IMG/VR virus record: IMGVR_UViG_3300009164_000047
Location: 1-64,000 of that record
Length of the DNA: 64,000 nucleotides
Source of the DNA: a virus
Strand: one strand, 5' to 3'
The notes beneath the pieces were generated by a model. It did no database searches. It was not told the DNA's origin and was given only the letters and a program-made list of their open reading frames with translations. Below are positions 5,916 to 58,973 of this stretch, in pieces. Every line of letters begins with the position of its first letter. Position 1 is the stretch's first letter. Position numbers and translations under genes: made by a program.

Positions 5916-5962
5916 TATGTAATTGTATTTAGTGTATAAAAACTACCATTTTAGGAGAAATA

Positions 5963-6793
5963 ATGAGTTTAGAAAATAACCCTTTAAAGCAGTATTTCCG
6001 TCGCCCGGGAATTTATTTAAAATTACCCAGCGGTGGATTAGGATATGAACCGGGAGTAATTGAATTTCCAGAGACCGGAGACTTGCCTGTGTATCCAATG
6101 ACTGCGATTGACGAAATCACTAGCAAAACTCCAGATGCGTTGTATAACGGAACTGCTGTAGTAGATATCATTACTAGTTGCATTCCATCAATTAAACAAC
6201 CATGGAAAGTAACCTCAGTTGATTTAGATGCTATCTTAGTAGCAATTAAAATTGCAACAAATGGTTCTGAAATGGAGATTGAAACTACTTGCAATAAATG
6301 TGAGGAAGAATCAAAGTACGGGGTAAACTTAAGTATGGTTTTGAATAATTTCAGACCCGGTGATTATGAAAACGGACTAGTAATAGACCAATTGAAAATA
6401 AAGTTTCGCCCACTAACTTACAAAATATTAGCTGGTAGTAGTGTAAAACAATTTGAAATACAAAAAGGTATCATTTACATTAACAGCTTACCTGACGGCT
6501 TTGAAAAAGACGAAAAGTCAAATGAATTGTTAAAAACAATAACAGACTCAACAGTTGATGTATTAGTAGATACTATTGATTGTGTGATTACTCCGGAATC
6601 AATAGTAAACGATAGAGCATTTATTATGGAATTCATTATGAACACTGATAAGAAAACTTTTGAAGCTATCAGAGACCATAGTGTAAAATTGCGTGAAAGT
6701 ACACAAACTCAACCATTACACATAACATGTACTCATTGCAATAATGAGTATGACCAAGCATTCACATTGAATGTAAGCGATTTTTTCGCTTAA
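5963..6793 (+). CDS. 26: Baseplate hub/assembly protein, T4 gp26-like
   Basis: A 276-residue protein with the pattern of the T4 baseplate protein family (gp26 type): an N-terminal RRPGIYLKLPSGG, a central TSVDLDAILVAIKIATNG, and two CxxC pairs (CNKCEEES and CTHCNNEY) that probably bind zinc. A good ribosome-binding site (TTAGGAG, 6 bases) precedes the ATG. The final codons GAT TTT TTC GCT TAA contain a correctly phased T_TTT_TTC slippery heptamer, and the -1 frame continues without a stop into the downstream small ORF. Ribosomes could therefore make both this protein and a 351-residue fusion. In T4 the gp26 class acts in hub assembly; the frameshift proposal is mine. Confidence 0.75.
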   Translation: MSLENNPLKQYFRRPGIYLKLPSGGLGYEPGVIEFPETGDLPVYPMTAIDEITSKTPDALYNGTAVVDIITSCIPSIKQPWKVTSVDLDAILVAIKIATNGSEMEIETTCNKCEEESKYGVNLSMVLNNFRPGDYENGLVIDQLKIKFRPLTYKILAGSSVKQFEIQKGIIYINSLPDGFEKDEKSNELLKTITDSTVDVLVDTIDCVITPESIVNDRAFIMEFIMNTDKKTFEAIRDHSVKLRESTQTQPLHITCTHCNNEYDQAFTLNVSDFFA

Positions 6794-35800: not shown

Positions 35801-38800
35801 GAACTCTACCAAAAATAGGCATGCTGGTTACCGGATTTACAATACCAGCAAATACATTTGTTATTTCTGTGTCTAGTGAATACGTAGAGTTGTCTAACAT
35901 TATCAGAATAACACCGGCAGTTCAGTTTATAGACTTTACTGGAGTGATTTACGATCTTAACACCACCGTTACTACTCAATTAAATGTTGCAATAACCGGC
36001 ACATCAGGTGATTCCGTAGCAACATTAAATTATTCAGTTACAAACTTACAACCAGGACAAATTAAAGGTCTACAGTTATATTTTTATAAAATTATTAATC
36101 CATATACATATGTTGATTCAAGACCCGGCGGTGCAACTATCAAGGTGTTTAAGCCAAACTTCTCTGCTCAAAACATAACAAATAAGTACTTCATTCAAAT
36201 TATTGATCCTGGTACTATTTACGCTAATGGTGATGTTATTGTAATTAACGGTAGCAATTTAGGTGGTGTGAATGGTATTAATGATGCTAAGATTACAGTA
36301 AAGCTAGCAGATTATATAACTAATGAAATAAGCGTATATGAATTAAACGGGGTAGCAGTTAACTCTTTTGAAAAATACTATGTCAAGCCTATTAGTCAGA
36401 CACAAGTTGCGTTATTCTATGACACCTCACTAGTAAGACCTGTACCAAACCATGCATTTACATTCCTAAGTGGTGATTATGCATATATTCCAGAACCAAT
36501 CTACATTACATCCGGACACACTCGCAGTCCATATAGTTTAGTAACATTCAATAATACATTATATCGTTGCATGGTAAGTAATAATGATATTGCATTTGAT
36601 TTTAACAAATGGGAAGAAGTACGTAGTGATGAATTTGATTTGAATGCATTAGATAGAATCATGGGATTCTACAATCCAACAGACAACATGCCAGGTAAAA
36701 ATCTACCAATGTTAGTATCTGGTATTGATTATCCAAATAATACTTACTTTGGTCAACCGTTTGATGACTTAGTTAATGAACTAGATACTGTATTGAAGGA
36801 TCAAATATTCTATCCAAGCAATATCAATTTACGTGGTATTATCGTAGCCGAACAAAACTTGTTGGTTGCAATTGGTGATACTGAATCATATTCTATTATA
36901 TTGTTAAGTCACGATACTGGCGTAACTTGGACTATGAAACAAATCAGTAAAAATGTATTAAATGTACAAGACATTAGATATGATGAAGGTCATTATGTTA
37001 TCGTTACAAGTAATATACATTCACCTGTCGTAACCAGCAACGACTTAGAAAATTGGGTATCAGTGGGAGAATTTACACCATACGATACTAATAAATTTGA
37101 TGATGTGGGATATGATAGTTCATCAATTTCTGCACCAAAAGATAAATTGTACAGTGTAATTTATAACAACAATTTCTATATTGCTGTGGGTGATGAATTA
37201 CTAATCAGCCCGGACAGCTATACTTGGAGTGTTCAATATAGCTTCAGAAGTTCATTACCTCAACAATTTAAACGTGTAGCTTATGTATCTTCTGCATTCT
37301 TTGACGGTTATATTGCTACTGGTCTTGGTACAATTACTAATACTACTGTTAATGGATACACATCATTGGTATCAACTTCTAAAACTTTCAGAAGTTTGAA
37401 CGGTCTTGATTGGGAAGAAATATTACCAAGAGTAGTATCAACTGGATTAAATGTAGTATTATCATCTGGAACAGCTATTGTTTTAGCTGGTGACAATTAT
37501 CAAGTTTTCACATCAACTAACTCTCATGCATGGGATCCGGCATCAATTGACGGTACTGCAAAGACATCTAATCTGTTAAACGGTATATATGCTAACGGAA
37601 TGTTTGTTATTGTGGGCGATGATGGTACCATTATAACTAGCCCGGATGGAATTATTTGGAGTGAAGTAGTATCTAATACTACCAAGACATTGACTGCAAT
37701 AACATATAGTGACGATAATTGGATTATTGTTGGATCCGATGCTACTATTCTACGTAGCACTGATGCTGTTATATGGCAAAATGTATCATTGATTAAGACA
37801 GAAGAAAACTTCTATCAAATCAAAGGTGATCCATTCATTTCTGGTTATGGACCAGAGGAATTAGTTCCCGGTGTATTAACAGATACGTTAACCATGACTG
37901 TTACAACTCGCCCGGGAAGTACATGGCTAGTTGAAGATTATCCATTCAATGGATTTACAGTTAAAAAATTCATACATGCACTTACTGATTTACCAATAGA
38001 CTTTTCTCTGATTACCGAGAATCCTGCACACGTTGCATTATACTTAATGGATTCTTCTACTAAGTTAGGTTTTAGAATTTATCAAGATATAACACCTACT
38101 ACATCTAATAGCTATTCATATTCAATCAATTGGATTACTCAATCAATCACGCTAAGTGCTTTGGATGGTGTTAGTTTGTATGATAACACAAAATATCTAC
38201 AAATTGAAGTATATGAATTTGGTAATGGCAATCAAGAAGTTAGAAGTAATTCGCAGAACTTGCCTTTACGTATTGATCCTGTTACAGGTTATAGTGAAAT
38301 ATGGTTAGGTTATGCATACGCACCGGAAATATATGCTACTCCTGTTGTTTACTTAAACGGTAACCCTTTAATATATGAGGATGATTACAAAATATCAACC
38401 ACCGCATCTAAAGAAGCTAAATTATTGTTCACTACAACATACCATTCTGAAACTGATTATTTAAGTTTTGCAATTATGGGTCTAGAAATTAACTCTAAAC
38501 AAAATAGTTTCAGTATTCCACAAACACAAGTATTTGAAGTTGCACCATCTATAACTGAATTAGTTCTCACTAATTTTGTTGGATTGTCTTCAGATGGTTA
38601 TACCAATGATGTAGATGCTATTGTAGAATATAATGGTGTAAGATTAATTCCAACTATCCAGTATACTATTGCAGTTGATCCTAATTCAGAAATTGGTACA
38701 GTGACATTATTGTTTAATCCGGCATCTGGCGAAGATTTGATTAGTGTTACTACATTCCATGATACCCGTGACCAATACTTGTTAACAGAAAACATTAACA

Positions 38801-39924
38801 CATTACAAGTAACTCCACTATTAACTGTCAACACTGATAAAGGTGAGTTGACATTAATCGTTACTACGGTACCTGAATTTGTCACCGGTGACTTAATAAC
38901 AATTGATGGTATTAACGGTACTACACAATTAAATGGTAATGAATATTATGTTAGATTAATGACTCCTGTAACAGAGGATGCAATAACATATCAACCAATT
39001 AAACTATTCTATGATGTATTGTTGGCAAAACCAGTAACTGGTAAAATACTAACAAGTTATGTGTCTGGTGGATATATTTGGAAATCTGACACTACACATG
39101 AAATAAATCAACCTGATTTAACGTTGACTAATATTAATAGATTGTTTGTGACTATTAACGGATACAAAGTTGACAACAGTAGACTTAAACTTAAGAGTGG
39201 AAACAAGCTTAATATTTTAGAACCTATTACTACGGGTGATGTTGTTTTGATTACCAGTATGATTACAAACGCTACACCCAATCAACTAGTATATGTAAAT
39301 CACATTGATAAAAATGGTGAACAATCAATATACCGAGCAAATACAGGTGTCAGAACTTGGTTGACAAAAAACTTAGAAGTACTTGACAGTCAAATATATG
39401 TCGAAGATGTAGCTAAGTTGTTAGATTTAGTCAAAACAACCGTAGTTGCAGCTACAATAAATGAAAATGTTGCGTGCCTTGTAAATTACGCAGTCGAGAC
39501 CATTAAGGAAATTTCTGTATATAATATTTCTACACTAACTCAAATAAGTACAGAAAATATTACATTGGCTATTAAGAATTCTAGACCAGTGATTTATATA
39601 GCTAAAGGTGCTTCTGAAGGTGATAACTTGGAGGTTTCACTACGACTAGGTAACACTATCAATATTGGTGGGGAAATTATTACTTTTAAGAAAGTTAATA
39701 CTGAGACTAATACAATTTCAGGAATTACCCGAGGAGTAGATGGTTCTGGTGCTAGATTGATGCATTCGGAATATACTATGGTCTATGGTGTAAAATTGAC
39801 AAATACATTGTTCAATTTCTACTATAACCGTACTTGGAACAGTGAGGACTATTCAGTTGAGGGTGATCCGTTGCAAGTCAGTGACAGCTTCCCGGCTAAC
39901 TTCTTGCAGGTCGGTACAGAATAA
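23809..39924 (+). CDS. Giant baseplate-associated structural protein (5371 residues, gp7 position)
   Basis: One uninterrupted frame of 16.1 kb. The N-terminus (MANRVRTIDFLPEIFRTETN, NNQFLGATLDQLV) follows gp6, where T4 has gp7, and I infer a wedge-initiator-like start fused to a long multidomain extension. Visible parts are: two CBM5/12-like modules near residues 1783-1830 and 2427-2470 (W, YVKGSIV and NKYWMA; then WSGSTPYSVGAVVFHSGNTY); FG-GAP-like repeats near 2190-2885 (GTALAKSD-type blades, DVLVGAP, VVGIPDNYSGDGFNG); two NYS/ITRG modules (LYSLTRGAGDSD near 3565; TISGITRGVDGSG near 5305); and a BNR/Ycf48-like propeller near 4345-4665 (IITSPDGIIWSEV and similar). It probably spans baseplate and periphery. 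Function beyond this is inference. Confidence 0.65.
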   Translation: MANRVRTIDFLPEIFRTETNNQFLGATLDQLVTPPKLDKIEGYIGRKFEYGLTASDSYIVEPSKIRQDYQFEPGVIFTKTNTSTAVDFLTYPGLVDALVSENGSVINHSKLFANQFYSWDSFVDLDKLVNFSQYYWLPDGPDVVDVKTSLLYNKLDYVVTNQSIDYSISANDISLGKNPIITLLRGGTYTFNVSQPNKFYIQTSPGTSGKNPSRVNLTSREIYGLDNNGIDAGFMTFTVPYATDQDNIKYPGNNPVDIVCTLPFEKVHGMPLSKLKEIDGINSLRNRTLMFYGFKPGTTAKLTNFYDNVAFDDVTYDGGDTTVITNNFYKINYVSEDDGDPVIILTEQKVIPTNQKITAIFGETFISRDFVKNQLGEILQLAQITADLDTLYYQDAVDPLKTGLIKLVEDNASHKINVEAEILGKKTYKSPFGVVFTNGMKINFVGSIFPESYKDKKYYVEGVGTGIELVPETDVLVPETFSQIVYKSYDNEGFDTSTFSERLNVPVVKDYITISRNAKNRNAWSRSNRWFHINVLKATALYSSGKISNAALNNADNRAKRPIIEFYPNLKLFNSGTMHKTFVDFIDTTTTNANTQVSGQTSYIPDGSLPLFDGATIVFTADNDVEVRNKIFTVRFRSITGSGSPIITLTNANKDVIVANEQVVSKRGTNNVGKTYYFNGSNWSYSQAKTLINQPPIFDVFDINGVSFSNQSYYQGSDFKGTKLFSYAIGTGTDDIILGFPIKYSSVANIGDINFNIDFNSDSFNFIKNFVSTTYNITDGYVHNYTSLTAYNRKIGWETAIGESFQYQAFEFEYTIGKSFSTLKFNILPVTSSPWPTVKVYFDSTELTSSQFTVKTSTTLNQTTVTLLFPPVVNTMMQVLIYSNDPLDSKAYFTIPSNLSNNPFNVDIPELSLGDLRGHYQSIYNNSRKITGDVFGANNFRDVGNLIPYSTKIIRNSAPMVKLAAFMRHPEYNLIDSLSFNAQEYVKFKQLMLSTVDQSEYFPTMSGGQMLDDVLQQIASYKQESDSFFWSDMLPARAPYISKIYTFNAFIDTSFFPLSKIYDFKNANYNSILVYSKNTVGGIDRYTQLIKDLDYTISSTQPKLQITKDLVAGDTIIVNEYNTTYGSYVPNTPSKLGLYPASRPSIVLDNSYLIPTYFIKGHDGSLTKLFGAYNNGYLEDFKDKVLLEFETRIYNNIKVSAPIPIKEDEIIPGYFRSTGNSIAEVQNIYSVNFLDWVGKNNIDFANNFYSSSEKFTWNYKNATDKTNKVITQGFWRGIYLWYYDTTTPHSTPWEMLGLTDKPSWWDARYGEAPYTSDNKVLWTDIEAGRINGTVNSRRARPGLSTILPVDSYGNLKNPFNTMVRDYSKAVFNTAWDVGDVGPAEYSYRRSSNWPFDLMKIIALLKPAKFFSLAQDIDLYTYSSEFNQFLLDGFLHGNKIPLLYGNGTAQHGYMNWIVDYVQRTGHIGHNKVTSLLNNLDVRLIYRIAGFTDKEYLNFYLEKTSTNSNNVSLLLPSESYNVMLYQNQPEFTIRYSSIIIQKTSANGYSVTGNSQTRSYFMTYTSDPDGTYKVIEVNGKKVNIPNNYSTVIKYVPYGTVFTTAQSLGEFITNYGRYLTDQGIQFDNQENEFILNWEQMVAEALYWVGANWEVGSLISINPVANCLVINKDSLIVQPLTAQDKNFILNQNLYAIHSSDLAILRDDTRFEVRPLNDGDTISYFTASLNSLEHGIVFDNVSLFNDTIFNKLTGLRQNRLFLRGQKTAEWNGTLNAQGFLLNQDNIENWSANVKYVKGSIVTHQNKYWMANKTVLASLTFNSNDWIETDYEKIQKGLLPNASTRASESALYYDIKNANLKNDGDLLGFSLIGYRPRDYLSASDLSDISQVNLYKSFLSEKGTKNAVNIAQNITLDVGQIKYDVYENWAIKTAEYGGITNHNFIEFKLNKTQLTGNPNIIGIVNDKPESGLLQTIPLYGLTNFGSVITDINILPRKPLDYFEKLPSAGYVNFNDIKMFSLSFDRLSVGTLTANDIFQGDYIWIADDYGSWKVTTPIPMGTINKHVNAISVNNNFNGTATFEFDFPHGLVKDDTFMIVNYDSSIDGFYRVNTVGGLTTVTVDLSLPSDTTSINSLGIASKFQTQRITTTKELSNLLLMNDGASQQKVWVDTDQNGKWAVLQKDLSYKYTNLLKRSGTQNFGNSVIFDKDLGIYIGDPGARTVYRYAYAKAGTYGVTSINANTYEYKESAYVNTAGFGTAMAKSDDVIIITSPGATNSYVYVGVLHPSTHKSFIVQQVITIAGKRVGDAVALSGDKKWLYLSSLTEAKVYVYRLDDNVIRVSAGFVLSSAIAIYATGFIVNGDQSDGLGHGDKVSFSNAIKAESYVIETSEYNLGTNKTTFYIEGNFKSLVATGTTVYKATYNYSSVTTLNVSDVIPAWSGSTPYSVGAVVFHSGNTYIAVGGSTNQNPSTQTVYWKVSNTGFGTTLSTNFDGSKVFISAPTLDFTPTLFNMGAVYVYNRIVQNITYVRDSIDWTDLTTKLAWSPANGISVSHNGQLLVPAIDYTTTANTVTFKYPFRVGAGDVVNISSGDFVFTQTLTPYDYRTSVRSSIAFGTGLDTNIFGNDVLVGAPFDISVDNYEGAVYRYTHEGKKYGTITGVNAVTLVSTATILINGTVVVLPSTGLNNIVTAINQAGILNVIATAIDETKLQISLRDPKLGRLNDKLTITVFNKSVLDSLGIKEYTQTQTIREVHNTTNPTQFGYSIKFNEYNSVAISAPVANRFAATTFDFIDDSKSNNDTYFDNNFTRFIDSFANAGAVFVYDYIAEYNESLSNLGSYVFAQSCNDLITNIGPSAFYGRQLAFSEYTLVVGIPDNYSGDGFNGRVVAYKNLTNKPNWNIFRKSNDVVDVDRLSGVQIYDNDTNERSQSLDYIDPLQGKLLGVVMENLDYVDSIDPAGYNTDVRNHNLVWSSEYIGKLWFDTSSTRFVNYHQEDTVYNSRYWGTVFPDSVVSVYTWVESDVTPVNYTGTGTPYDLESYTTTVEVDNAGSLVLKYYYWVKNTNVIQSTKGKTLSDTILELYIANPITSGVPFFAAYKPNVFGLYNASDFITDLTSSLYIGFSSGSNETPAYNEYKLIRAGYEDDFIAGIPSMYTEHNEPEAMYEKLLDSLAGMDSQGRVVPDITLPKLMQTGTAYRPRQSMFKNRLKALANYFGYANTVLKQYPIAEFKTPSLLGSSNSESSTVRAPTFFTIAGVDFDTTKYWEYIYWWAEGYSVNTKIDVEVSKYYGLATLIPYLGMIAGVTMNSDGKREVYVYNGKSWDRIGLEQGTIQIKESLWNYSGYKIGFDSNFFDLDAYDSYPSMETRYIIRALNEQIYTETLRIHRNKSLILLFEYIVSENTTSQNNLTWLNKTSLVDVQHTLRELAQDKNYKRDNQVFLEGFINEVKPYRVVIKEFLLKYTKAESFTGQVTDFDLPGRYSVTTDRFITPNLVFDSVRATGQVLPTDAIWTDSLYSDWYSNYGISLTGSANNPITSLEIYLDKISDVLYVDDAFGLPVTGRIKIDNEYINYSQIDREKGKLYSLTRGAGDSDVANHIPGTIVYIDLPGVVLLDSGRDYIDPPQISAVIDSTIYPAPTRPATLIPVMSGGKVIDITVTDPGLGYTTKPDIVIQASITILFDSANINYNDNTININAVSLLTGDAVKYIKSLTSLGISGLQNKKYYYVRVISTDSLFYKKSVIALYTTKNNAMIDSRRVNLAESINSINNKLEVSARAVPIVSNTPTRELTSTLKFDRTSYRTKVEEWTSGEYYGSVVTNNGVESSLDLSVNYAIPYPGLTGVATHPGSATDGTGAIFTIYNILFGLSYDAEITFAGASYDVGDIITISGANLSGISSTNNCVLTVTTISNVGGITSVTVAGTPSTVTRASIQQAVLPITNVSSINATIASTTNGIIYGNQFAAAGTINGLFISGMVLSGGTIPANSVHITKVVTAKFTAEIFGTSSVKILTGTLPKIGMLVTGFTIPANTFVISVSSEYVELSNIIRITPAVQFIDFTGVIYDLNTTVTTQLNVAITGTSGDSVATLNYSVTNLQPGQIKGLQLYFYKIINPYTYVDSRPGGATIKVFKPNFSAQNITNKYFIQIIDPGTIYANGDVIVINGSNLGGVNGINDAKITVKLADYITNEISVYELNGVAVNSFEKYYVKPISQTQVALFYDTSLVRPVPNHAFTFLSGDYAYIPEPIYITSGHTRSPYSLVTFNNTLYRCMVSNNDIAFDFNKWEEVRSDEFDLNALDRIMGFYNPTDNMPGKNLPMLVSGIDYPNNTYFGQPFDDLVNELDTVLKDQIFYPSNINLRGIIVAEQNLLVAIGDTESYSIILLSHDTGVTWTMKQISKNVLNVQDIRYDEGHYVIVTSNIHSPVVTSNDLENWVSVGEFTPYDTNKFDDVGYDSSSISAPKDKLYSVIYNNNFYIAVGDELLISPDSYTWSVQYSFRSSLPQQFKRVAYVSSAFFDGYIATGLGTITNTTVNGYTSLVSTSKTFRSLNGLDWEEILPRVVSTGLNVVLSSGTAIVLAGDNYQVFTSTNSHAWDPASIDGTAKTSNLLNGIYANGMFVIVGDDGTIITSPDGIIWSEVVSNTTKTLTAITYSDDNWIIVGSDATILRSTDAVIWQNVSLIKTEENFYQIKGDPFISGYGPEELVPGVLTDTLTMTVTTRPGSTWLVEDYPFNGFTVKKFIHALTDLPIDFSLITENPAHVALYLMDSSTKLGFRIYQDITPTTSNSYSYSINWITQSITLSALDGVSLYDNTKYLQIEVYEFGNGNQEVRSNSQNLPLRIDPVTGYSEIWLGYAYAPEIYATPVVYLNGNPLIYEDDYKISTTASKEAKLLFTTTYHSETDYLSFAIMGLEINSKQNSFSIPQTQVFEVAPSITELVLTNFVGLSSDGYTNDVDAIVEYNGVRLIPTIQYTIAVDPNSEIGTVTLLFNPASGEDLISVTTFHDTRDQYLLTENINTLQVTPLLTVNTDKGELTLIVTTVPEFVTGDLITIDGINGTTQLNGNEYYVRLMTPVTEDAITYQPIKLFYDVLLAKPVTGKILTSYVSGGYIWKSDTTHEINQPDLTLTNINRLFVTINGYKVDNSRLKLKSGNKLNILEPITTGDVVLITSMITNATPNQLVYVNHIDKNGEQSIYRANTGVRTWLTKNLEVLDSQIYVEDVAKLLDLVKTTVVAATINENVACLVNYAVETIKEISVYNISTLTQISTENITLAIKNSRPVIYIAKGASEGDNLEVSLRLGNTINIGGEIITFKKVNTETNTISGITRGVDGSGARLMHSEYTMVYGVKLTNTLFNFYYNRTWNSEDYSVEGDPLQVSDSFPANFLQVGTE

Positions 39925-46080: not shown

Positions 46081-47496
46081 ATGACAGACGAAGAAAAATA
46101 TGCAAAGCATATTACAAAAACACGTGACGAGTTGAATGAAGTTAGTCCTAGCTATTGTGTAGCTAAGTGGAAACAAGTCACCATGCATTTGCAGAATGGA
46201 CATACACATAGCTGTCATCACCCACGCACACACTTAGTTCCTGTAGAAGAATTAAAACAGAATTACAAAGCACTTCACAATACTTCATACAAGAAACAAC
46301 AACGTAAATTGATGTTAGAAGGTGTGCGTCCAAGTGAATGTGATTATTGCTGGCGTGCAGAAGATGCAGGTAATATTAGTGACAGAACATACAAAAGTGC
46401 TGACCACTCTTGGGCATATGGTCACTTAAAAGAACTACCTAAATTAGAATGGGACGCTGATATAGACCCTAGTTACGTTGAGATTAGTTTTAGTAGCGTA
46501 TGTAATTTTAAATGTAGCTATTGCAGTCCAAACATCAGTAGTCAATGGATGGAAGAAATTGAAAGATATGGTGCTTATCCAACAAGCAATAAGTTCAACA
46601 ATCTACAATGGTTTCAACAGAATGACCAGATACCTATACCTAACAACCAAGACAATCCATATGTAGATGCGTTCTGGAAATGGTGGCCTACTATGTATAC
46701 AGAACTAAAGCAATTTAGAATTACTGGTGGTGAGCCTTTACTAAGTAAAAACACATTTAGGGTACTTGATTATATCATTGAGAACCCTGCAAATATACAT
46801 TTAACATTTAGCGTAAACACGAACATGAATGTACCTGATGAATTATACAATAAGTTTATTGAAAAGTTAAAAATAATTCAGGAGCAGGGTAAGATTGGGA
46901 GTTTACAAATCTTTACAAGTGCAGAAGCACATGGAGCACAAGCAGAATATATACGTAACGGTATGAATTACGAACAATGGTTAAAGAATTTGCATCGTAT
47001 GATTAATGAAGTACCTAGAGTAGCAATTACAATTATGAGTACTTACAATATTCTAAGCATTCCTAGCTACCGGCAGTTCTTGCAGGATATGCTTGACATT
47101 AGATTACAGTATAGAGACATTGCATACAAAAATAACAGAAATCCTGTGACAATAGATATGCCTTATCTACGTCACCCATCTCATCAAGCAAGTTTCATTA
47201 TACCAGAATATTTGTTACATTATGTAGAAGAACAAATTAAATTTATGGAAGCACATCCCGAGCCTAGCACGCCTGGACAAGAATATACAGGCTTTTATGA
47301 AAATGAAATATATAAGTTGCGTAGAATTTACAATATTATCAAAGCAGAGATTGATTCCGGTAATGATAACACCACTAATCGTAAAGATTTTGTATCGTTT
47401 GTAGATGAACACGACCGTAGACGCGGTACTAATTTCTTAGAAACATATCCCCAACTAACACAGATGTACACCGAATGGAAAAATTTATTGACATAA
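46081..47496 (+). CDS. Radical SAM protein (twitch-type)
   Basis: A 471-residue radical SAM enzyme. C141, C145 and C148 (CNFKCSYC) would bind the catalytic [4Fe-4S] cluster, and TGGEPLL near 214-220 is the SAM-binding GGEP motif. Additional cysteines lie before the core: C45 in HSCHHPRTH and C87/C90 in CDYCW, which could hold an auxiliary cluster in a twitch-like domain placed N-terminally. Such proteins occur in T4-like marine phages. Family reactions include peptide and carbohydrate modification; the substrate here is unknown. Its last 22 bases overlap the repeat-protein gene, which makes that protein a candidate substrate or partner. Confidence 0.82.
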   Translation: MTDEEKYAKHITKTRDELNEVSPSYCVAKWKQVTMHLQNGHTHSCHHPRTHLVPVEELKQNYKALHNTSYKKQQRKLMLEGVRPSECDYCWRAEDAGNISDRTYKSADHSWAYGHLKELPKLEWDADIDPSYVEISFSSVCNFKCSYCSPNISSQWMEEIERYGAYPTSNKFNNLQWFQQNDQIPIPNNQDNPYVDAFWKWWPTMYTELKQFRITGGEPLLSKNTFRVLDYIIENPANIHLTFSVNTNMNVPDELYNKFIEKLKIIQEQGKIGSLQIFTSAEAHGAQAEYIRNGMNYEQWLKNLHRMINEVPRVAITIMSTYNILSIPSYRQFLQDMLDIRLQYRDIAYKNNRNPVTIDMPYLRHPSHQASFIIPEYLLHYVEEQIKFMEAHPEPSTPGQEYTGFYENEIYKLRRIYNIIKAEIDSGNDNTTNRKDFVSFVDEHDRRRGTNFLETYPQLTQMYTEWKNLLT

Positions 47497-50548: not shown

Positions 50549-50650
50549 ATGTTTGAAAATTGGCATTGGGTTTATATGTGGGGCATTTTAGTTGTAGCCA
50601 ACTATATGTTCTGGATAGTAAAAAGTCTTTTTGACAACGTGAAAGAGTAA
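50549..50650 (+). CDS. Small single-pass membrane protein
   Basis: A 33-residue ORF with TAAGG five bases before the ATG. The sequence MFENWHWVYMWGILVVANYM then FWIVKSLF gives one hydrophobic, Trp-rich membrane segment and a charged tail (DNVKE). It ends just before the tmRNA acceptor piece. The role is unknown; small inner-membrane peptides of this kind are common in T4-like phages. Confidence 0.5.
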   Translation: MFENWHWVYMWGILVVANYMFWIVKSLFDNVKE

Positions 50651-50717
50651 GTTATTGCTGTATGAAGCAAAGAGAAAAGTGTTCTGGACGGGGGTGCGAA
50701 TCCCCCCAGGTCCACCA
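50651..50717 (+). ncRNA. ssrA: tmRNA acceptor piece (permuted two-piece tmRNA)
   Basis: GGACGGGGGTGCGAATCCCC followed by CCAGGTCCACCA (50686-50717) forms a T-arm (GGGGG/CCCCC around TGCGAAT) and the 3' acceptor strand CAGGTCC plus ACCA. CAGGTCC pairs over all seven positions (one G-U) with GGGCCTG at 50901, which starts the coding piece downstream. The gene order acceptor-then-coding is that of circularly permuted tmRNA. TGCTGT (50656-50661) can pair with ACAGCA (50942-50947), and TGTTCT (50680-50685) with AG(T)AACA near 50926-50933, as the long P2 helix linking the pieces. The 5' boundary is approximate. Encoded CCA is present. Confidence 0.85.
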
Positions 50718-50728
50718 TAAGGAAGTTT

Positions 50729-50899
50729 GTGAAAAGTAAAAGTAAGTTCAGTCGTTTTAATCTTAAAGGCAACATTATGTGGTGCCTAAATTTGCGTAAC
50801 GGATGGGTAAGAATTTACAACACTATAATTCGTTGGAATACCGATTGGACAACTAATTATAGATACTTTTCAATAGAACAAATAAAAGTTTCTTTATGA
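50729..50899 (+). CDS. Small ORF inside the tmRNA intervening segment
   Basis: A 56-codon ORF from a GTG at 50729 to the TGA at 50897-50899, preceded by AAGGA six bases upstream. The product is basic and Trp/Tyr-rich: KSKSKFSRFNLKGNIMWCLN, then LRNGWVRIYN and IIRWNTDWTTNYRYFSIEQI. It exactly fills the 183-base segment between the CCA end of the acceptor piece and the first base of the coding piece. Processing of the tmRNA precursor would release or destroy this message. The codons and the ribosome site look real, but no family is recognised. Confidence 0.5.
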   Translation: MKSKSKFSRFNLKGNIMWCLNLRNGWVRIYNTIIRWNTDWTTNYRYFSIEQIKVSL

Positions 50900-50900
50900 T

Positions 50901-51060
50901 GGGCCTGCATAGTTTCGACAGGGCAAGTAGTAACAGAGTGGACAGCACGGTAGGCGATGACCGTTAATCAAGCAAAAAAAGTAAACGCAAACGACTCACA
51001 GTTCGCATTAGCAGCCTAAACACTGCTTAGGGTAAGACATACCTCGTAACAGAAAATCAG
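50901..51060 (+). ncRNA. ssrA: tmRNA coding piece, tag ANDSQFALAA
   Basis: It starts GGGCCTGCATAGTTTCGACA, with the conserved tmRNA D-arm-like TTTCGACAGGG. ACGGT (50947-50951) and ACCGT (50960-50964) form a stem of the first pseudoknot, whose loop GAT can pair with ATC at 50967-50969. The resume codon GCA at 50987 opens the tag A-N-D-S-Q-F-A-L-A-A, closed by TAA at 51017-51019. AGCAG (51010-51014) and CTGCT (51023-51027) make the helix that normally encloses the tag end. The LAA terminus is the ClpXP degradation signal. tmRNA with SmpB frees stalled ribosomes. The 3' end is approximate, before the terminator. Confidence 0.9.
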
Positions 51061-51083
51061 AAAAGGCTCTTAGGAGCCTTTTT
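51061..51083 (+). terminator. Rho-independent terminator of the tmRNA/late operon
   Basis: AAAAGGCTC pairs with GAGCCTTTT over nine base pairs around a TTAG loop, and the stem runs directly into a T tract. It follows the tmRNA coding piece. Confidence 0.85.
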
Positions 51084-51101
51084 CTTTGGCATAATTTTTC
51101 T

Positions 51102-51109
51102 AATAAATA
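51102..51109 (+). promoter_or_regulatory. T4-type late promoter motif (AATAAATA)
   Basis: TAATAAATACT lies 21 bases upstream of the tail-fibre ATG at 51131 and directly after the tmRNA terminator, so the fibre gene has its own late transcript. Confidence 0.6.
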
Positions 51110-51130
51110 CTATATTAAATAGGATAAATT

Positions 51131-54100
51131 ATGTCTTTTACGTTGTCTGATGGTGGAGTTCAAATATCTAATATTTCAATTTTAGGGCCTACCCCCGGAG
51201 CCCCCGGTATAACCGCAGCAACCCAAATTGGAATAGGGCAGGTACAAATAGATTATACTGCACCAATTTATAAAGGTGCATCGATCATTACACGATATTT
51301 TGTAGTTTCCTCACCTGGTAATATTACTGCTAGTATAACTACATTTACTTCCGGTAGTATTGTTCTTTCTGGTTTGACAGATAGACAAATTTATGTCTTT
51401 GTTGTTTATGCGGAAAATTCATATGGGTTTGGTGCAACTGCAATTAGTTCTCCGGTACAGATATATCCTGCAAAACCAGATGAACCTATAATAGTATCAG
51501 TATCTCAGCAAGGGTGGGGAGCTAATATTTCTTATACTGCCCCCTTACTGACAGGCCTTTCTCAGATACAATCATATACCGGTATCTCTACTCCGGGTAG
51601 TATTACTAAAACTGTAAATCAATCGGGTTCAGGATATTTAGTAATAGGTGATAATACAACTAAGTTAACATTAGGTACACCTTATACTTTTACAGCACAT
51701 GCTACTAATTCTTATGGTGATAGTATAGAAAGTATTGCTAGCAATAGTTTAACTTTAACAAGGCCCACTGTTGACGGACCTACGTTAGTACCATCTACTT
51801 ATCAAACTGATTTAAATGTGTATTTAACTGTCATCCCCCCAACACGTACTGCGGTTCAAGCACCGGTTACTACTTATTCCGTAACATTTAATGGCGGTAC
51901 TACAACAGGTTCATCTTCTAGTACACGCACGGTTAGTTCAAGTATATTAGCTTGCAGAACTGCCGCTCCAACAGTTGAATCTGCAGGACCATATACATTA
52001 ACGGTTGGAGGGATAGCAGCAATACCAGTTTCAACTACTTATCCTAACTCTTACGTTTATCCCTATAGTCCTTTTATGGGGGCTATAGCTAGTAATTTTA
52101 ACGGAAGTAATTATTTAATAGGACCAACTAAACGTAGATTAATTAACACTGGGCCATTCAGTATTGAATGTTGGATAAAACCCGCAAATCCAGTTTCCGG
52201 TACCGACCAATGTATAGTTCAAAACTTTGATTGGAATGGTGGAAATAATTCTGGATTTATATTGTGGTTAACTGGTTCTGGAAAAATAAGATTAGAAGCA
52301 ACTGATGGAGTATTTAGCCTTACAATTCCTACACAGCCTACAGTAATCGAAAGTAATTATGCACTACCGGCGAATACATTATACGCATTACGTTTTACTA
52401 ATACTGCTACTAATGGTTCTCAGATGATAACCGGACCATTAACTCAAGCAATACTTACTGTTGGACCATTTACTATTGAAGCTTGGATAAAACCTAATCA
52501 GCCATCAGTAGCGGTAAACATGTTAGTTGTTGAAAACGCACGATGGTCTGCTGGTAATGCCGGAGGATTCAGAGTATATGTAACGACTGCTAATACCATA
52601 AGGTTAGATGCTGTTAATGGAACATGGAATTCTTTTCCAACGGTTTTAACTAGTACTACATCAATACCAAATGGAGATTATACTCATGTAGCAATAACTA
52701 GGGACAACAACAATGATATAAGGATTTTTCTTAATGGGGTAGTAGATGTCTCTACTGTTAATAATTCAAGTAATTTTAGTAACATAGCGTATAGCTCTGG
52801 TACCGGTGGTTTAGGTACATTAAGAATAGGTGCAAGTCAATCTGATTCTACTTACCCCAATCCATTCCAAGGGTTTATATCTAATTTAAGAATAGTTCCG
52901 GGGGTTGCAGTATATACTGTATCTTTTACCGTTCCTAATTTTTTGCTAAGTGCTACACAAAGTTCAAGTACAAATATAGCGGCTATTGGCCCTGTTATAC
53001 CATCAGATGGTTATAGTGTACTTTTTAATCCAAATATAAATGCAAAACAATACTTAACAGTACCCTATAATTCTATTTTTGATATCCCGACAGACACTCA
53101 ATGGACTATTGAATGCTGGGTATTAACAAGTAGTACAAATGCTTTTATTATAGCCAATAGAAATTGGAATTATGGTAGTGGTGGTCCTACATGGGGATTT
53201 AGCCTTCAAGGTGGAGTCACACCACAATGGGACATAGCTGGATCAGGATCTGCAAGTTTTGTCTTGGCTACATCTACTTTAAGTGGTACACTGGGTCGAT
53301 GGAATCATTATGCATTTACCCGTGATTCTAACAATGATTGTAGAATTTTTGTTAATGGACAGGTGGGTGTTACCCGTAATGATAATAGAGCAATGACTAA
53401 CGCTGCCGGACCTGTATTTATCGGTGTTGCTAGTAATCTCAGTAACTCCTCATATTCTTCTGGACATATATCAAATTTAAGAATTGTTAAGAATCAAGCA
53501 TTATATACTACCAATTTTACACCAAGCACAAGTCCATTAACTAGAACAAGTCAAGGTGCTATAGCATCTAATGTAATTTTAGTAATATGCCAGGGTAATA
53601 CTTTATCTGATAATGGAACAGGTAATAGTGGCTCTACGTTTACCCTATCTGCTTTTGGAAATATTAATTATGTAAATACACCTATAATTACAAAACATTA
53701 CAGTCCTTTTGGTACTCAAGCAGTACTTCTTGCAGGACAATCTAGTTCAGCTACCACCGACAATTCCGGTCTTTCACCACTTAGTGGCGGTGCTGGAGGG
53801 GTTGTTTTATTTCAAAATAAATGGTATCATATTGCAGTATCACGTGATATATATAATGTTGTTCGTATTTTTGTTGATGGGGTTGCAGATACTAATACAG
53901 TAACTTATCCAGCAAGTTTAAGTTTACGTGCTACGCAATCCGTCGGTAATCCAGGACCAACATTCAGAATAGGAGCACGTGTTAAAGATTCTAGTGTATC
54001 TAATAATTATACTGGTTTACTATCTGATTTACGTATCATTCAAGGTTACTATCGTTCAATTAATTTTTCATTACCAACAGAACTATCAAATGCTAGTGAA

Positions 54101-54898
54101 ACCTTGAGTAATATATATCCAATATTGTCTTTACCAAACAATACTTATACCTTTACTGGTGTTTCAAATAATATATATGGTGACGGGCCTGCAGGTACTG
54201 CATCATCTCCGTTTATTGTTAATAACAGTCAAATAGCATGGGTTAATACAAGTACAGTAAATGCAATCAGCACAACATGGACAGTACCTGCAGGTGTTTA
54301 TTCTATTAGTGCAGTTGTAATAGGAGGGGGCGGAGGAGGAGGATATAAATCGGGCGGAGGCGCCGGTGGTGGTGGAGGAGGAGGATTGACTTATGCTAAT
54401 AACATCACTGTTAATCCAGGGGAAGTTTTAACAATACGTGTTGCATTTGCAGGTGCATTCGCTACTGCATCGCTATCTCCTGGATATGGTGGAAGCTCAT
54501 CAATTACCAGAGCCTCTGCAACTGTTTTAATTACTGCTAGTTCAGGGTATGCAGGCTCTCAAAATGCTAGTACCGCTGGTGCTCAGGGCGTTGGAGGGAA
54601 CGGAACAATAGTAAACGGTTCTGGATTAAATGTTGAAGGTGAAACTGTAACCGGGTATAGTGGTAAAGCAGGTAACGGAGGAAGCGGCACTACAAATGGT
54701 CAAGGTGGTAGTGCGGCTACGTATACAGCACAACCGACTACTACTCTTGTAGGTATAAGTGAACTAGGTAGTGCAGTATCCGGAGTAAACGGTGTAGGTG
54801 GTAGTAGCGGTTCTAATGGTGGTCCGGGTGTCGTGCGAATTGTATGGCCAGGAGAATTTAGAAAATATCCAGATACAAACGTTAGTACAAATCTTTAA
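51131..54898 (+). CDS. Large tail fibre/adhesin: Fn3, LamG-like and glycine-rich tip
   Basis: A 1255-residue protein. Residues about 15-215 form two fibronectin-III-like domains (GVQISNISILGPTPGAPGIT; FVVYAENSYGFGATAISSPV). Residues about 315-985 contain four concanavalin/LamG-like units marked by FSIECWIKP, FTIEAWIKP and WTIECWV, each followed by an xFxNGVxD strand and IGASQSD-type turns, and closed by SNLRIV. The C-terminus from about 1065 is poly-Gly (VIGGGGGGGYKSGGGAGGGG), then GGSS and GGSSGSNGGPGVVRIVWPG motifs, as in glycine-rich receptor-binding tips of T-even-type adhesins. It is probably the distal fibre that binds host glycans. The gene follows its own late promoter. Confidence 0.72.
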   Translation: MSFTLSDGGVQISNISILGPTPGAPGITAATQIGIGQVQIDYTAPIYKGASIITRYFVVSSPGNITASITTFTSGSIVLSGLTDRQIYVFVVYAENSYGFGATAISSPVQIYPAKPDEPIIVSVSQQGWGANISYTAPLLTGLSQIQSYTGISTPGSITKTVNQSGSGYLVIGDNTTKLTLGTPYTFTAHATNSYGDSIESIASNSLTLTRPTVDGPTLVPSTYQTDLNVYLTVIPPTRTAVQAPVTTYSVTFNGGTTTGSSSSTRTVSSSILACRTAAPTVESAGPYTLTVGGIAAIPVSTTYPNSYVYPYSPFMGAIASNFNGSNYLIGPTKRRLINTGPFSIECWIKPANPVSGTDQCIVQNFDWNGGNNSGFILWLTGSGKIRLEATDGVFSLTIPTQPTVIESNYALPANTLYALRFTNTATNGSQMITGPLTQAILTVGPFTIEAWIKPNQPSVAVNMLVVENARWSAGNAGGFRVYVTTANTIRLDAVNGTWNSFPTVLTSTTSIPNGDYTHVAITRDNNNDIRIFLNGVVDVSTVNNSSNFSNIAYSSGTGGLGTLRIGASQSDSTYPNPFQGFISNLRIVPGVAVYTVSFTVPNFLLSATQSSSTNIAAIGPVIPSDGYSVLFNPNINAKQYLTVPYNSIFDIPTDTQWTIECWVLTSSTNAFIIANRNWNYGSGGPTWGFSLQGGVTPQWDIAGSGSASFVLATSTLSGTLGRWNHYAFTRDSNNDCRIFVNGQVGVTRNDNRAMTNAAGPVFIGVASNLSNSSYSSGHISNLRIVKNQALYTTNFTPSTSPLTRTSQGAIASNVILVICQGNTLSDNGTGNSGSTFTLSAFGNINYVNTPIITKHYSPFGTQAVLLAGQSSSATTDNSGLSPLSGGAGGVVLFQNKWYHIAVSRDIYNVVRIFVDGVADTNTVTYPASLSLRATQSVGNPGPTFRIGARVKDSSVSNNYTGLLSDLRIIQGYYRSINFSLPTELSNASETLSNIYPILSLPNNTYTFTGVSNNIYGDGPAGTASSPFIVNNSQIAWVNTSTVNAISTTWTVPAGVYSISAVVIGGGGGGGYKSGGGAGGGGGGGLTYANNITVNPGEVLTIRVAFAGAFATASLSPGYGGSSSITRASATVLITASSGYAGSQNASTAGAQGVGGNGTIVNGSGLNVEGETVTGYSGKAGNGGSGTTNGQGGSAATYTAQPTTTLVGISELGSAVSGVNGVGGSSGSNGGPGVVRIVWPGEFRKYPDTNVSTNL

Positions 54899-54955
54899 GT
54901 GTTTACACTGGGTAAAAACAATGATTTTCTCTATGTTATTTTTGATTTTTCCGTG

Positions 54956-54988
54956 TATAATAACGATATATACTATGACAGTATGTCA
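54956..54988 (+). promoter_or_regulatory. Candidate promoter/operator of the pqqA-like gene
   Basis: TATAAT at 54956-54961 lies 47 bases before the ATG; the -35 region is poor (no good TTGACA at 16-18 bases). TGACA-GTA-TGTCA at 54976-54988 is a short palindrome close to the expected transcript start and could be an operator. Both are weak calls. Confidence 0.4.
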
Positions 54989-55008
54989 AACTTAACCAGG
55001 AGAAAACT

Positions 55009-55080
55009 ATGTGGACAAAACCAACAGCATCTGATATGCGTTTCGGATTTGAAATCACGATGTATATTGCTAACCGCTAA
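55009..55080 (+). CDS. pqqA: PqqA-like peptide (precursor of the cofactor PQQ)
   Basis: A 23-residue [23 protein letters not shown] then ANR, with AGGAG six bases before the ATG. PqqA is a 22-29-residue ribosomal peptide whose conserved Glu and Tyr, spaced E-x-x-x-Y, are cross-linked by the radical SAM enzyme PqqE (with PqqD) and excised to form pyrroloquinoline quinone. Here they are E15 and Y19 in FEITMY; the MWTKP start and the IANR end are typical of proteobacterial PqqA. No pqqB, C, D or E is nearby, so it would depend on host enzymes. It lies between the fibre gene and a strong terminator, forming a possible single-gene unit. PQQ serves methanol and glucose dehydrogenases, consistent with a methylotroph-like host. 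Confidence 0.85.
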
Positions 55081-55094
55081 TATATATTGAAATC

Positions 55095-55122
55095 AAAAAA
55101 AGGGCACTAGTTGCCCTTTTTT
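55095..55122 (+). terminator. Rho-independent terminator after pqqA
   Basis: AAAAAAAGGGCA and TGCCCTTTTTT pair around a CTAGT-type loop with a T tract, 15 bases after the pqqA-like stop codon. Confidence 0.85.
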
Positions 55123-55512: not shown

Positions 55513-56076
55513 ATGAGATTTACAAAATTAGCAGTAACATTCGCATCACTATTGATTGCAGGTTCAGTATTTGCTGGAGGCTATGCATCATTGGAATATT
55601 ATGATGAAAGCAATCGTCTAACCGGTGCAGACAACATTAAAGAAGCATTGGTCATCGGTAACAAAGTTGGTGACACAGACTATAGTCTTAAAATGGAAAA
55701 CAGCCAAACAGAATTTGGCAGTGGTTCTATTACACAAGGTCTTGAAGTTCGTGTAAAACAATCTTTTGGTGACAAGGGTGGTATCCGTCCTTACTTGGGT
55801 GTTCGCCTGGGTGAAAAAGTATCTAGTTCAACTAACTTTAGTCACTATGCTTTTGATGCAGGAGTCAAGATTCCTCTAGGCGCAGGTTTTACCGGTGATG
55901 TTGGTGCTCGTTATCGTGATGCATTTGATACATCAAACAGTTACACCACACAACGTGCTCACCTTGCAATTGGTTATGAATTAACTAAACAAGACGCAAT
56001 TGCAGTTCGCTGGAGCCGTAGCTGGGGTGATGAAGAAAAAGACGCAGTACGTTTACAGTACACACGTAGTTTCTAA
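55513..56076 (+). CDS. Outer-membrane beta-barrel-like protein with signal peptide
   Basis: A 187-residue protein with a clear Sec signal peptide (MRFTKLAVTFASLLIAGSVF, cleavage expected after A21). The mature part alternates hydrophobic and polar residues in strands (GGYASLEYYD, LEVRVKQSF, IRPYLGVRLGE, AHLAIGYEL, IAVRWSRSW) and ends LQYTRSF with a C-terminal Phe, the usual signal for outer-membrane insertion by the Bam machinery. By length it would be an eight-stranded barrel. The late-type promoter suggests production at the end of infection, possibly for superinfection exclusion or lysis; that is inference. Confidence 0.78.
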   Translation: MRFTKLAVTFASLLIAGSVFAGGYASLEYYDESNRLTGADNIKEALVIGNKVGDTDYSLKMENSQTEFGSGSITQGLEVRVKQSFGDKGGIRPYLGVRLGEKVSSSTNFSHYAFDAGVKIPLGAGFTGDVGARYRDAFDTSNSYTTQRAHLAIGYELTKQDAIAVRWSRSWGDEEKDAVRLQYTRSF

Positions 56077-56193: not shown

Positions 56194-56448
56194 ATGAAGA
56201 TAGAAAAAGCAACTGATTGGCAAGATGTGCATACTAAACTGCGTAGTCAAATGCTTAGTATTGGATACAATCCTGATTTGCAACGTATGCTTAACAACAT
56301 TACTAATATGGTAAGTGAGTTAAGTAACCTAGAAGTAGATGCTAGACGTACACGCATAGAACATTATGCAAAGGAAAAGGTCAATGAAGTTAATAAAGCC
56401 ATTGACCATTTAGAAAAGTTATTGTTGATAGCACAGTTAATGCGTTAA
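56194..56448 (+). CDS. Small helical protein from a leaderless-type strong promoter
   Basis: An 84-residue, all-helical and highly charged protein (MKIEKATDWQDVHTKLRSQM at the start, IDHLEKLLLIAQLMR at the end) with heptad-like spacing. I start it at 56194; an upstream in-frame ATG at 56173 lies inside the promoter. No Shine-Dalgarno sequence precedes it. The strongest host-type promoter in the window suggests early, abundant expression, as for takeover proteins. The family is not recognised. Its stop codon overlaps the stop of the converging gene by four bases. Confidence 0.65.
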   Translation: MKIEKATDWQDVHTKLRSQMLSIGYNPDLQRMLNNITNMVSELSNLEVDARRTRIEHYAKEKVNEVNKAIDHLEKLLLIAQLMR

Positions 56449-57803
56449 TGTTTCTTTACATCAACTAATAAATCAAAACCAACTTGTTGTATTTCCATGT
56501 CAAAGTTATGTTCTTTGGCAATATGTTCAAATACTTTCTTACTGAACCCAGTACGGTGTATCATAAAGTCAACCCGATTCTTATGTACACTATGACGATG
56601 ACCGTAGATAATATCAATAGGACTAATTGGTCCACCAGCACTTTCATATACAACGTCAAGTAAATCACCTGATGCAATCTTTTCACCTATAACTTGTAGG
56701 TTAGGTGTCAATATTCTAACATATCCATCGGGCTTGCACACACGCAATAACTCACTGATAACACTAGGTACTTTAAAGTAATCAATATGTTCAATCATAT
56801 GTGAAGTGTAAGCACAATCTACATAGTTATTTGGTATATGACTTATATCAGTTACATCAGCTAGTATATCTGGATTAAACTTATTATCAATATCCAATGA
56901 TATCTCACGCATATCTTCAAATACTTCAGTATACAATAAATCTTTAATTGCTATACCGCCAAACCCAACGTTCAATACAGTCTTATCAGTTGTTGGTTGT
57001 AATGTTTCAGGTCTATCATATCTATCCCACCATTCACGCCAATTCATTTGGTCATCTTCTTCTGTATCATATTGCATATGTAATGCAAGACTTGGAATAG
57101 GAACAAATAAATAATAGCCGCGCTTTCTAAACAATTGGTTGATAGTATTATCTTCCATTTTACTAGTAACCTCATGTTTGCCCATTGCTTCAAACACATC
57201 CCAATTGTCTTTGATAACTTGATGATGTACCATAAAACAACTAGCAGTCATGGGCAATGTACGCCAATGACGTCCTTGTCTACGAATGATATGACTTTGT
57301 ACTGCTGTGTTTTCTGGTATATACTTATATGGATCGTCATATGGATAGATACTAGTAAAGTTACCCAATGCACCGCTGGTAAACATCATTGTTTGAATCA
57401 TATCATAAATTGCAGTGGTGTCGTATAAATAATCATCTTGTGCAAAGTACACAATCTCTTTTCCATAATCACGACCGTGTTCATAGCAACGTAGTATGCT
57501 TGGCATGATACCATACGTATCAAGTGCAATGAATTGTGTTTTAAATGTAGCGATATTGAGATTGTTTTTAATCTCATTCACAATTGACGCATCACTATGG
57601 TCATCAAATACAACTAATTCAAATGTGCTATCTAAGTATAATTCCTTAGCATAGTTCATTGTCTCTACTAAACTACGTGTGCAACGTCTTGTTATCTCAC
57701 CTTTGGGTGCTTTAACAAAACGTTCATTCTGATTCATTCCTAGATAGTGCTGGCTATCACCTTTGCTATGTGTTTGTAATACTACTAATACATTTATTCC
57801 CAT
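56445..57803 (-). CDS. Glycosyltransferase-methyltransferase fusion protein
   Basis: A 452-residue, two-domain enzyme. Residues about 1-265 look like a GT2-type glycosyltransferase: ELVVFDDHSDASIVNEIKNN, then IVYFAQDDYLYD with a QDD metal/sugar site. Residues about 270-450 form a class I SAM-dependent methyltransferase: TVLNVGFGGIAIKDLLY (motif I), EISLDIDNKFNPDILADVTD and AYTSHMIEHIDYF. Such fusions make or cap methylated glycans. It begins one base after the oxygenase stop upstream, so these two leftward genes are co-translated. The acceptor is unknown; fibre or cell-surface polymers are possible. Confidence 0.75.
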   Translation of the reverse strand: MGINVLVVLQTHSKGDSQHYLGMNQNERFVKAPKGEITRRCTRSLVETMNYAKELYLDSTFELVVFDDHSDASIVNEIKNNLNIATFKTQFIALDTYGIMPSILRCYEHGRDYGKEIVYFAQDDYLYDTTAIYDMIQTMMFTSGALGNFTSIYPYDDPYKYIPENTAVQSHIIRRQGRHWRTLPMTASCFMVHHQVIKDNWDVFEAMGKHEVTSKMEDNTINQLFRKRGYYLFVPIPSLALHMQYDTEEDDQMNWREWWDRYDRPETLQPTTDKTVLNVGFGGIAIKDLLYTEVFEDMREISLDIDNKFNPDILADVTDISHIPNNYVDCAYTSHMIEHIDYFKVPSVISELLRVCKPDGYVRILTPNLQVIGEKIASGDLLDVVYESAGGPISPIDIIYGHRHSVHKNRVDFMIHRTGFSKKVFEHIAKEHNFDMEIQQVGFDLLVDVKKH

Positions 57804-58973
57804 TTAAATAAACCAAGTTATAATACTGTATCGTGTGCCTTTAGTTACAGGCATTATTTCATGTGGGTACATAAAGTTACTAGGGAACATTAATACGCTA
57901 CCCTTTTTAAGAAAAACTTTCTTTTCTCTATCCCAAAAAGCAAACTCACCGCCTTCATAGTCATCATTTATTGCAAATGAACAACTAACTGCTCTCGGTT
58001 GTTTTAAGAAACTATCAGTATGCTGGATGTAAAATTGTCCTTCATTATATCTTAACAGTTCATAGCCACTATCTTGATCTATTCTAGCTTCTGGAAAAAC
58101 TTCATTATACTTTTGAATTGCAGTAGCGGCAGCTTTAAATAATTCTTCATCTAATGCTTTTCTTATTTCAGGATTTTGCTGAATAACAGCTTGGAAACTT
58201 AATCCAATGGTATCAGTATTCCGTATCTTTGTATCAAGAACTCCTGCACCTATAATAGTTGGTTGCCAGTCATTGCTATTTACATACTCACTTAAAATCC
58301 TATCACAAAGGTCATCGGAAACAATATTTTCAAATACTTGTATATAATCTTCAATATTCTTTTTGTATTCTACTTTGGGTAACATGACTTCTTTTGTAGC
58401 TTCTGTTCGTTTTTCCATTACTAATTTTTTTGTTTCTTTATCTTTGTTATCAAAGAATGCATAATTTCTATCACCCCTACTACGTACATAATGCAAAAAT
58501 ACTTGAACATATTCTTGCCCTTGAAATTGTTCACGCCAGTGTTCGGCTTCACAACCCAAATACATCATAGCATCTCCGGATTTTAAATTTAATGATACCT
58601 CTTCACCGTTTGGTTTTTTAATATAGATGGGCCATTCTGCGTCACCAGCTAAGTGTAGTGTTAAACTAATTTCACACGCATCCCTATCTTTGTGAATTTT
58701 TAAATCACTGCCTTCTTTATATACTCTTGCATAGGTGTATGTTGGTAACACTGGCTCACCCAAAAAATTATTAATCTGGGGTGTTCTTTCACATAACAAT
58801 TCTAAAAAGTCTATATAATTGTAAACTGCATGAGAATTTTCAACTTGAGTGTCACCGGGTAAATTTTCTTCAATACAATAATTTATGAATTTGTTATATA
58901 AATGATTTGCATGATCCTGTGATATAAAATTAGGGATGTATAGATAGTTATTGTCTATTAATTTCTGATTCAT
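57804..58973 (-). CDS. Tandem 2-oxoglutarate oxygenase (prolyl-hydroxylase-like)
   Basis: A 389-residue protein with two oxygenase domains. The first has H94-K-D96 (LKIHKDRDACEISLTLHL) and a second His in CEAEHWRE. The second is a classic P4H-type domain: H318-T-D320 (FYIQHTDSF), H371 (MYPHEIMPV) and R381 for 2-oxoglutarate, with DDYEGGEFAFWD between them. Both triads look intact, so both could be active. Phage prolyl-hydroxylase-like proteins are common in T4-like marine phages; targets are unknown. It sits between a Cys-rich small gene and the transferase-methyltransferase gene. Confidence 0.82.
   Translation of the reverse strand: MNQKLIDNNYLYIPNFISQDHANHLYNKFINYCIEENLPGDTQVENSHAVYNYIDFLELLCERTPQINNFLGEPVLPTYTYARVYKEGSDLKIHKDRDACEISLTLHLAGDAEWPIYIKKPNGEEVSLNLKSGDAMMYLGCEAEHWREQFQGQEYVQVFLHYVRSRGDRNYAFFDNKDKETKKLVMEKRTEATKEVMLPKVEYKKNIEDYIQVFENIVSDDLCDRILSEYVNSNDWQPTIIGAGVLDTKIRNTDTIGLSFQAVIQQNPEIRKALDEELFKAAATAIQKYNEVFPEARIDQDSGYELLRYNEGQFYIQHTDSFLKQPRAVSCSFAINDDYEGGEFAFWDREKKVFLKKGSVLMFPSNFMYPHEIMPVTKGTRYSIITWFI

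Follow-up and report, generated by a model that had tools for sequence, protein, structure and literature searches.

The occurrence of a 23-codon pqqA gene between the genes of a phage raises the question of what a virus could gain from the precursor peptide of PQQ when the proteins that act on this peptide are not encoded beside it. The gene lies in a window of 64,000 nucleotides (positions 1 to 64,000 of the IMG/VR virus record IMGVR_UViG_3300009164_000047), which is part of a 97,704-base virus record whose remaining 33.7 kb were also searched. An earlier note on this DNA had described the open reading frame (ORF) as a single-gene PqqA unit, which could either feed the PQQ synthesis of the host or act as a decoy. 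Judging from its sequence and that of its relatives, we place a probability of about 0.8 on its being a functional single-gene pqqA cassette, through which the phage would supply the consumed ingredient while the PqqBCDE proteins of the host would make PQQ.

The pqqA unit and its surroundings

The ORF scores about twice the curated cut-offs of the Pfam and NCBIfam models and matches them end to end. The whole of profile PF08042 (PqqA) is covered with an E value of 3.1e-10 and 40.2 bits (cut-off 21.1), and TIGR02107 is matched with an E value of 1.8e-10 and 40.4 bits (cut-off 20). The profile search, named in the earlier note as a way in which the assignment could fail, was therefore passed, and the full PqqA pattern is present exactly as it had been described. 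In the translation, the E-x-x-x-Y spacing is formed by E15 (55051-55053) and Y19 (55063-55065), and the residues of the N-terminal leader, the putative site of PqqD recognition, are conserved among viral sequences. A 54-base DNA pattern for PqqA occurs once in the window and in none of 100 shuffles. On profile and residue evidence, the ORF is a genuine PqqA.

The near-ideal ribosome site and the strong terminator that had been claimed are both in place (Table 1), the terminator hairpin reaching a z score of -4.1 against shuffles. This hairpin recurs downstream of pqqA in one related locus (L298) and, with an altered sequence, in another (L303). The leader of the unit includes a TATAAT-like element that is common to the upstream regions of loci L298, L302, L306 and L317 and makes it a candidate promoter region, although a sigma-70 scan of the leader yielded no promoter above chance. 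A further promoter motif near pqqA, TATATACTAT, was rejected, its frequency in the window being at chance level.

Table 1. Coordinates of the pqqA unit (positions within the window)
Feature	Position	Strand	Basis
pqqA, 23 codons and stop	55009..55080	+	profile matches, conservation in relatives
Codons E15 to Y19, including the Glu and Tyr cross-linked by PqqE in known PqqA	55051..55065	+	translation
Shine-Dalgarno AGGAG, 6 nt ahead of ATG	54998..55002	+	sequence
Rho-independent terminator hairpin, 11-bp stem, 5-nt loop, T run at end	55096..55122	+	dG -13.4 kcal/mol
Upstream leader of the unit, TATAAT-like element at about 54956-54961, candidate promoter	54899..54997	+	sequence comparison

The unit is preceded by a long lectin-like gene (51131-54898) and followed by genes for a 95-aa phage protein and a 187-aa protein. 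The latter (55513-56076, + strand) has a signal-peptide-like start and a barrel-like sequence, is conserved in 26 viral contigs and has no match in Pfam or PHROG. Elsewhere in the window are a permuted, two-piece tmRNA gene (50625-51110, + strand; RF04321, 131 bits), of a kind also present in phage Melnitz, a single open frame of 5371 aa (23809-39924, + strand), and a 2OG-Fe(II) oxygenase beside a methyltransferase-domain protein (57804-58973 and 56445-57803, - strand).

Other PQQ genes in the virus record

As is expected of an auxiliary metabolic gene, pqqA is embedded among phage genes, in a record that includes terminase and structural genes, and is conserved in relatives. The earlier note had found no pqqB, pqqC, pqqD or pqqE in the window, which tblastn bears out, and the other 33.7 kb, where it had proposed to look for them, contain none either (best E over both parts 0.14). 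The PqqE family TIGR02109 has no match in the 97.7-kb record. The search with the PqqC family (TIGR02111) was likewise negative for the record, a zero that carries little weight because the same search matched nowhere, the controls included. The gene is thus no member of a pqqABCDE operon in this record, pqqB-E being neither adjacent to it nor elsewhere in the 97.7 kb. The large terminase subunit (TerL) is about 51% identical to that of phages of 286-469 kb, which makes it probable that the record covers only part of a larger phage genome. The absence of pqqB-E therefore holds for the 97.7 kb, and the missing part could carry PQQ genes.

A radical SAM gene at 46081-47493 (+ strand), 7.5 kb from pqqA, was considered as a possible PqqE and rejected, since it has no TIGR02109 match and belongs instead to the twitch-domain family NF033640 (343 bits). 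Genes like this one may be those that have been called PQQ-related radical SAM genes in Baikal phages.

PqqA in cultured phages

When 50,697 phage records were searched by tblastn with the 23 residues, 12 of them matched, and a second PqqA query returned the identical set. Nine belong to Methylophilales phages (Venkman, MEP301, MEP401, MEP402, four Melnitz isolates and P19250A), one to a freshwater phage, and two are contigs named "Acinetobacter phage MD-2021a". These nine are all the methylophage records found in the collection, in which MEP431-434, Venkman EXVC038S, HIM624-A and others were not found. The MD-2021a record H11 (CAKLQF020000010.1) was rejected as a phage because its pqqABCDE operon is complete and it resembles a bacterial chromosome, and was kept as a positive control; H12 (CAKLQH020000055.1), in which PqqA was identical in the second query, was excluded together with it. 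True phages of Pseudomonas, Klebsiella or Acinetobacter, hosts that include PQQ makers, were not among the matches in the 50,697 records, and pqqA was likewise not matched in the SAR11 phage HTVC008M, which is related to Melnitz.

All seven phage loci that were inspected contain an intact PqqA with a ribosome site. The warning that such a gene is easily missed by gene callers proved justified: no gene is annotated at the pqqA site of Venkman, MEP301, MEP401/402 and P19250A, and the ORF annotated there in Melnitz and in the freshwater phage runs antisense to pqqA. Gene 152 of Melnitz (5961-6056 in locus L006), annotated as a hypothetical protein, is such an antisense ORF, as is that at 2067-2195 in locus L003. 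A phage PqqA goes unmentioned in the publications that describe Melnitz, MEP401/402 and Venkman.

The carriers belong to at least four unrelated lineages (Venkman-type, Melnitz, MEP401/402 and the phage of the window). This number is given as a lower bound because clustering by shared genes chains strongly, with 145 loci falling into one cluster at two shared genes.

The viral survey and the reactive residues

In its true orientation, the degenerate 54-base pattern is found in at least 120 viral contigs, and reversed in none of 2.9 million. Together with two scans in which the Glu and Tyr codons were left free, the total comes to at least about 270 viral pqqA loci in IMG/VR; these counts are lower bounds, and contigs of one phage may be counted more than once. 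With both codons free, Glu and Tyr are encoded in 120/120 and 117/117 of the viral matches listed, through synonymous codons of both residues, and the E/Y spacing, whose disruption in related phages would have spoken against the earlier note, is kept in all relatives examined. R11, F12 and F14 are invariant in 163 distinct viral sequences, though the pattern permitted other residues.

The stand-alone form extends from this record to the other viral loci. By tblastn, pqqB-E are absent from the fetched flanks of all viral pqqA loci listed; of the 120 bacterial loci listed, 22 do have them by the same method. PqqE exceeds its family cut-off in five of six likely host genomes and in none of 50 viral records, seven of which are complete genomes of named phages. 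A PQQ alcohol dehydrogenase gene accompanies pqqA in only one of the 50 viral records, a 72-kb viral contig (34049-35731, a 628-aa frame, 608 bits).

The retention of both reactive residues bears on the decoy idea, by which phage PqqA would occupy PqqD and PqqE and lower PQQ, stopping host oxidation or blocking a competing phage. The two proteins form a 1:1:1 complex with PqqA (PMC10906245), and a surplus of substrate-like peptide could titrate them. Such a function, however, needs the leader and not the reactive Glu and Tyr, yet both were kept in 237 of 237 listed matches with free codons. A normal substrate would also be turned over rather than block, and adding the same peptide is the means by which hosts increase their PQQ capacity. 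With the cross-linked residues and the leader kept under purifying selection, the decoy idea is weakened; we regard it as quite unlikely, and as less likely than the supply of PqqA to the host pathway.

Selection, gain and loss

The relatives used to measure selection were chosen through the neighbouring 187-aa gene and not through pqqA. In 12 of the 24 relatives with enough upstream sequence, pqqA occupies the same place upstream of this gene, and among eight distinct pqqA sequences of relatives pN/pS is 0.149. By this sequence measure, the phage gene is under purifying selection. At this site, pqqA is missing from half of the informative relatives, so it is dispensable in some of them; it also comes and goes, since two loci with like flanks differ in that one has the cassette (L311) and the other does not (L313).

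This variable presence among close relatives is what would be seen if pqqA were a neutral passenger taken up from a host, a reading that we nevertheless hold to be very improbable, because a passenger would not show such selection. Besides the low pN/pS and the occurrence in at least four unrelated lineages, the expression signals speak against it. In the strict-pattern set, all 173 viral pqqA genes are preceded by a Shine-Dalgarno match of 4 nt or more, as against 9.8% of random ATGs, and terminators are conserved despite sequence change. A Shine-Dalgarno match is likewise found in 106/113 genes of the window-type set, and a terminator-like site stands behind 57/170 genes of the strict set (background 1.1%).

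Hosts and PqqA types

Methylotrophs of the Methylophilaceae, OM43 and its relatives, are the hosts of the cultured carriers. When bacteria were scanned for the peptide type of these phages, the matches listed were titled Methylophilaceae, Methylotenera, Methylophilus, Methylopumilus or OM43, the exceptions bearing only the name of a higher group or that of an uncultured bacterium. All 80 Methylophilaceae genomes sampled contain pqqA, in 1-12 copies; a survey in the literature counted 3-12 copies and found the other pqq genes to be typically single (PMC4109929). In a methanol-grown PQQ producer, three of the five pqqA copies are detached and one detached copy is strongly expressed (PMC9851590); PqqA alone, added to a Gluconobacter extract, gave PQQ with 70-80% conversion (Wang 2021, as cited in PMC9851590). 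Of the pqq genes, it is thus pqqA that the hosts themselves multiply.

The PqqA of the present phage is of a different type from that of Methylophilaceae (EMRFGFEVTMYV[MC]N) and resembles PqqA of other Burkholderiales. Its subtype was found in one of 250 genomes sampled from the order of the Methylophilaceae, beside pqqB and a pqqC-like gene, and among plasmid records it is closest to Paraburkholderia and Burkholderia. From the peptide type, the host of this phage is probably a PQQ-making betaproteobacterium. For the nine cultured Methylophilales phages the link to methanol is good; for this phage it is drawn from its relatives only, because its PqqA is of a non-Methylophilaceae type.

PQQ might be made for another end, as an antioxidant, as a good shared after lysis, or for glucose or alcohol oxidation in a non-methylotroph host. 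The nearness of this PqqA to Burkholderiales rather than Methylophilaceae peptides and the scarcity of PQQ alcohol dehydrogenase genes in the viral records would agree with such ends. All cultured carriers with known hosts, however, infect Methylophilales methylotrophs, and no phage of glucose-oxidising PQQ makers in the collection has pqqA, which makes this reading unlikely.

Proposed role of the phage peptide

Supply of PqqA to the host pathway is thus the reading that we prefer. It is built on the identity of the peptide, its intact leader and E/Y core, its translation signals, purifying selection and recurrence in unrelated phages, together with the presence of pqq genes in likely hosts and of no other PQQ gene in the records searched. 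That PqqA is the consumed substrate of PQQ synthesis, as the earlier note had it, is supported. A phage would carry only PqqA because the peptide is consumed one-for-one, the PqqB-E proteins being reusable catalysts. Once host transcription stops, PqqA would be the first part to fail. During infection, the phage could make PqqA from its own strong ribosome site and so keep the pool of the peptide filled. Host PqqD and PqqE would then accept the phage peptide and form the SAM-dependent Glu-Tyr cross-link in it, after which a protease and then PqqB and PqqC of the host would finish the conversion, raising PQQ. Periplasmic PQQ-dependent dehydrogenases, methanol dehydrogenase possibly among them, would in this manner stay loaded, and electrons could reach respiration while the phage grows, to its presumed benefit. 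In phages, pqqA thus probably keeps the energy enzymes of the infected cell supplied.

A broader proposal, which we consider fairly probable, is that nearly every phage that infects PQQ-dependent betaproteobacteria has a stand-alone RiPP precursor gene, acquired repeatedly by unrelated lineages, which serves as an auxiliary gene for a consumable substrate, and that cofactor supply in infected cells is limited by the precursor rather than by the enzymes. Such genes, which fall below common gene-length limits, would constitute an extensive class of phage metabolic genes that has been overlooked. They suggest that methanol oxidation, which is a sizeable carbon flux in the sea and in fresh water, is steered by phages through the substrate of a cofactor and not through an enzyme. 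The idea is open to bench testing now, because phages and hosts are available as cultured pairs (strains of OM43 with Venkman, Melnitz, MEP301 and MEP401/402).

Comparison with known systems

A PqqA has been reported before in a T4-like freshwater phage of Lake Baikal, population VP_266, for which the same role was proposed (Coutinho 2020, PMC7678222). That phage was presented as a single case and also carries methanol dehydrogenase, whereas pqqA stands alone here and is found in at least about 270 loci and in nine cultured phages. A 2026 paper lists pqqA among the viral genes of reservoir sediments (PMC13188868), and PQQ is not named in the main text of a survey of viral metabolic genes from the ocean that appeared in 2024 (PMC11360552). 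What is new is the generality of the gene, its stand-alone form, the conservation of the reactive residues, its presence in every one of the nine records of cultured methylophages that were found, and its parallel in the multiplication of pqqA by hosts. The stand-alone pqqA copies of Methylophilaceae (PMC4109929) are likewise precursor genes only, detached from pqqBCDE, but are carried by the bacterium itself and encode another PqqA subtype than that of this phage. With bacterial PqqA in general (PF08042, TIGR02107) the phage peptide shares its length, the WxxP start, the E-x-x-x-Y core and R11, G13 and F14; the phage gene differs in lying not beside pqqBCDE but between phage genes, with its own terminator.

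Phage-borne parts of host energy machinery are also represented by psbA in cyanophages and pmoC in methanotroph phages. As in these, the phage would supply a part of the energy machinery of its host. The products of psbA and pmoC, however, are protein subunits, whereas PqqA is a peptide substrate that is consumed for a cofactor.
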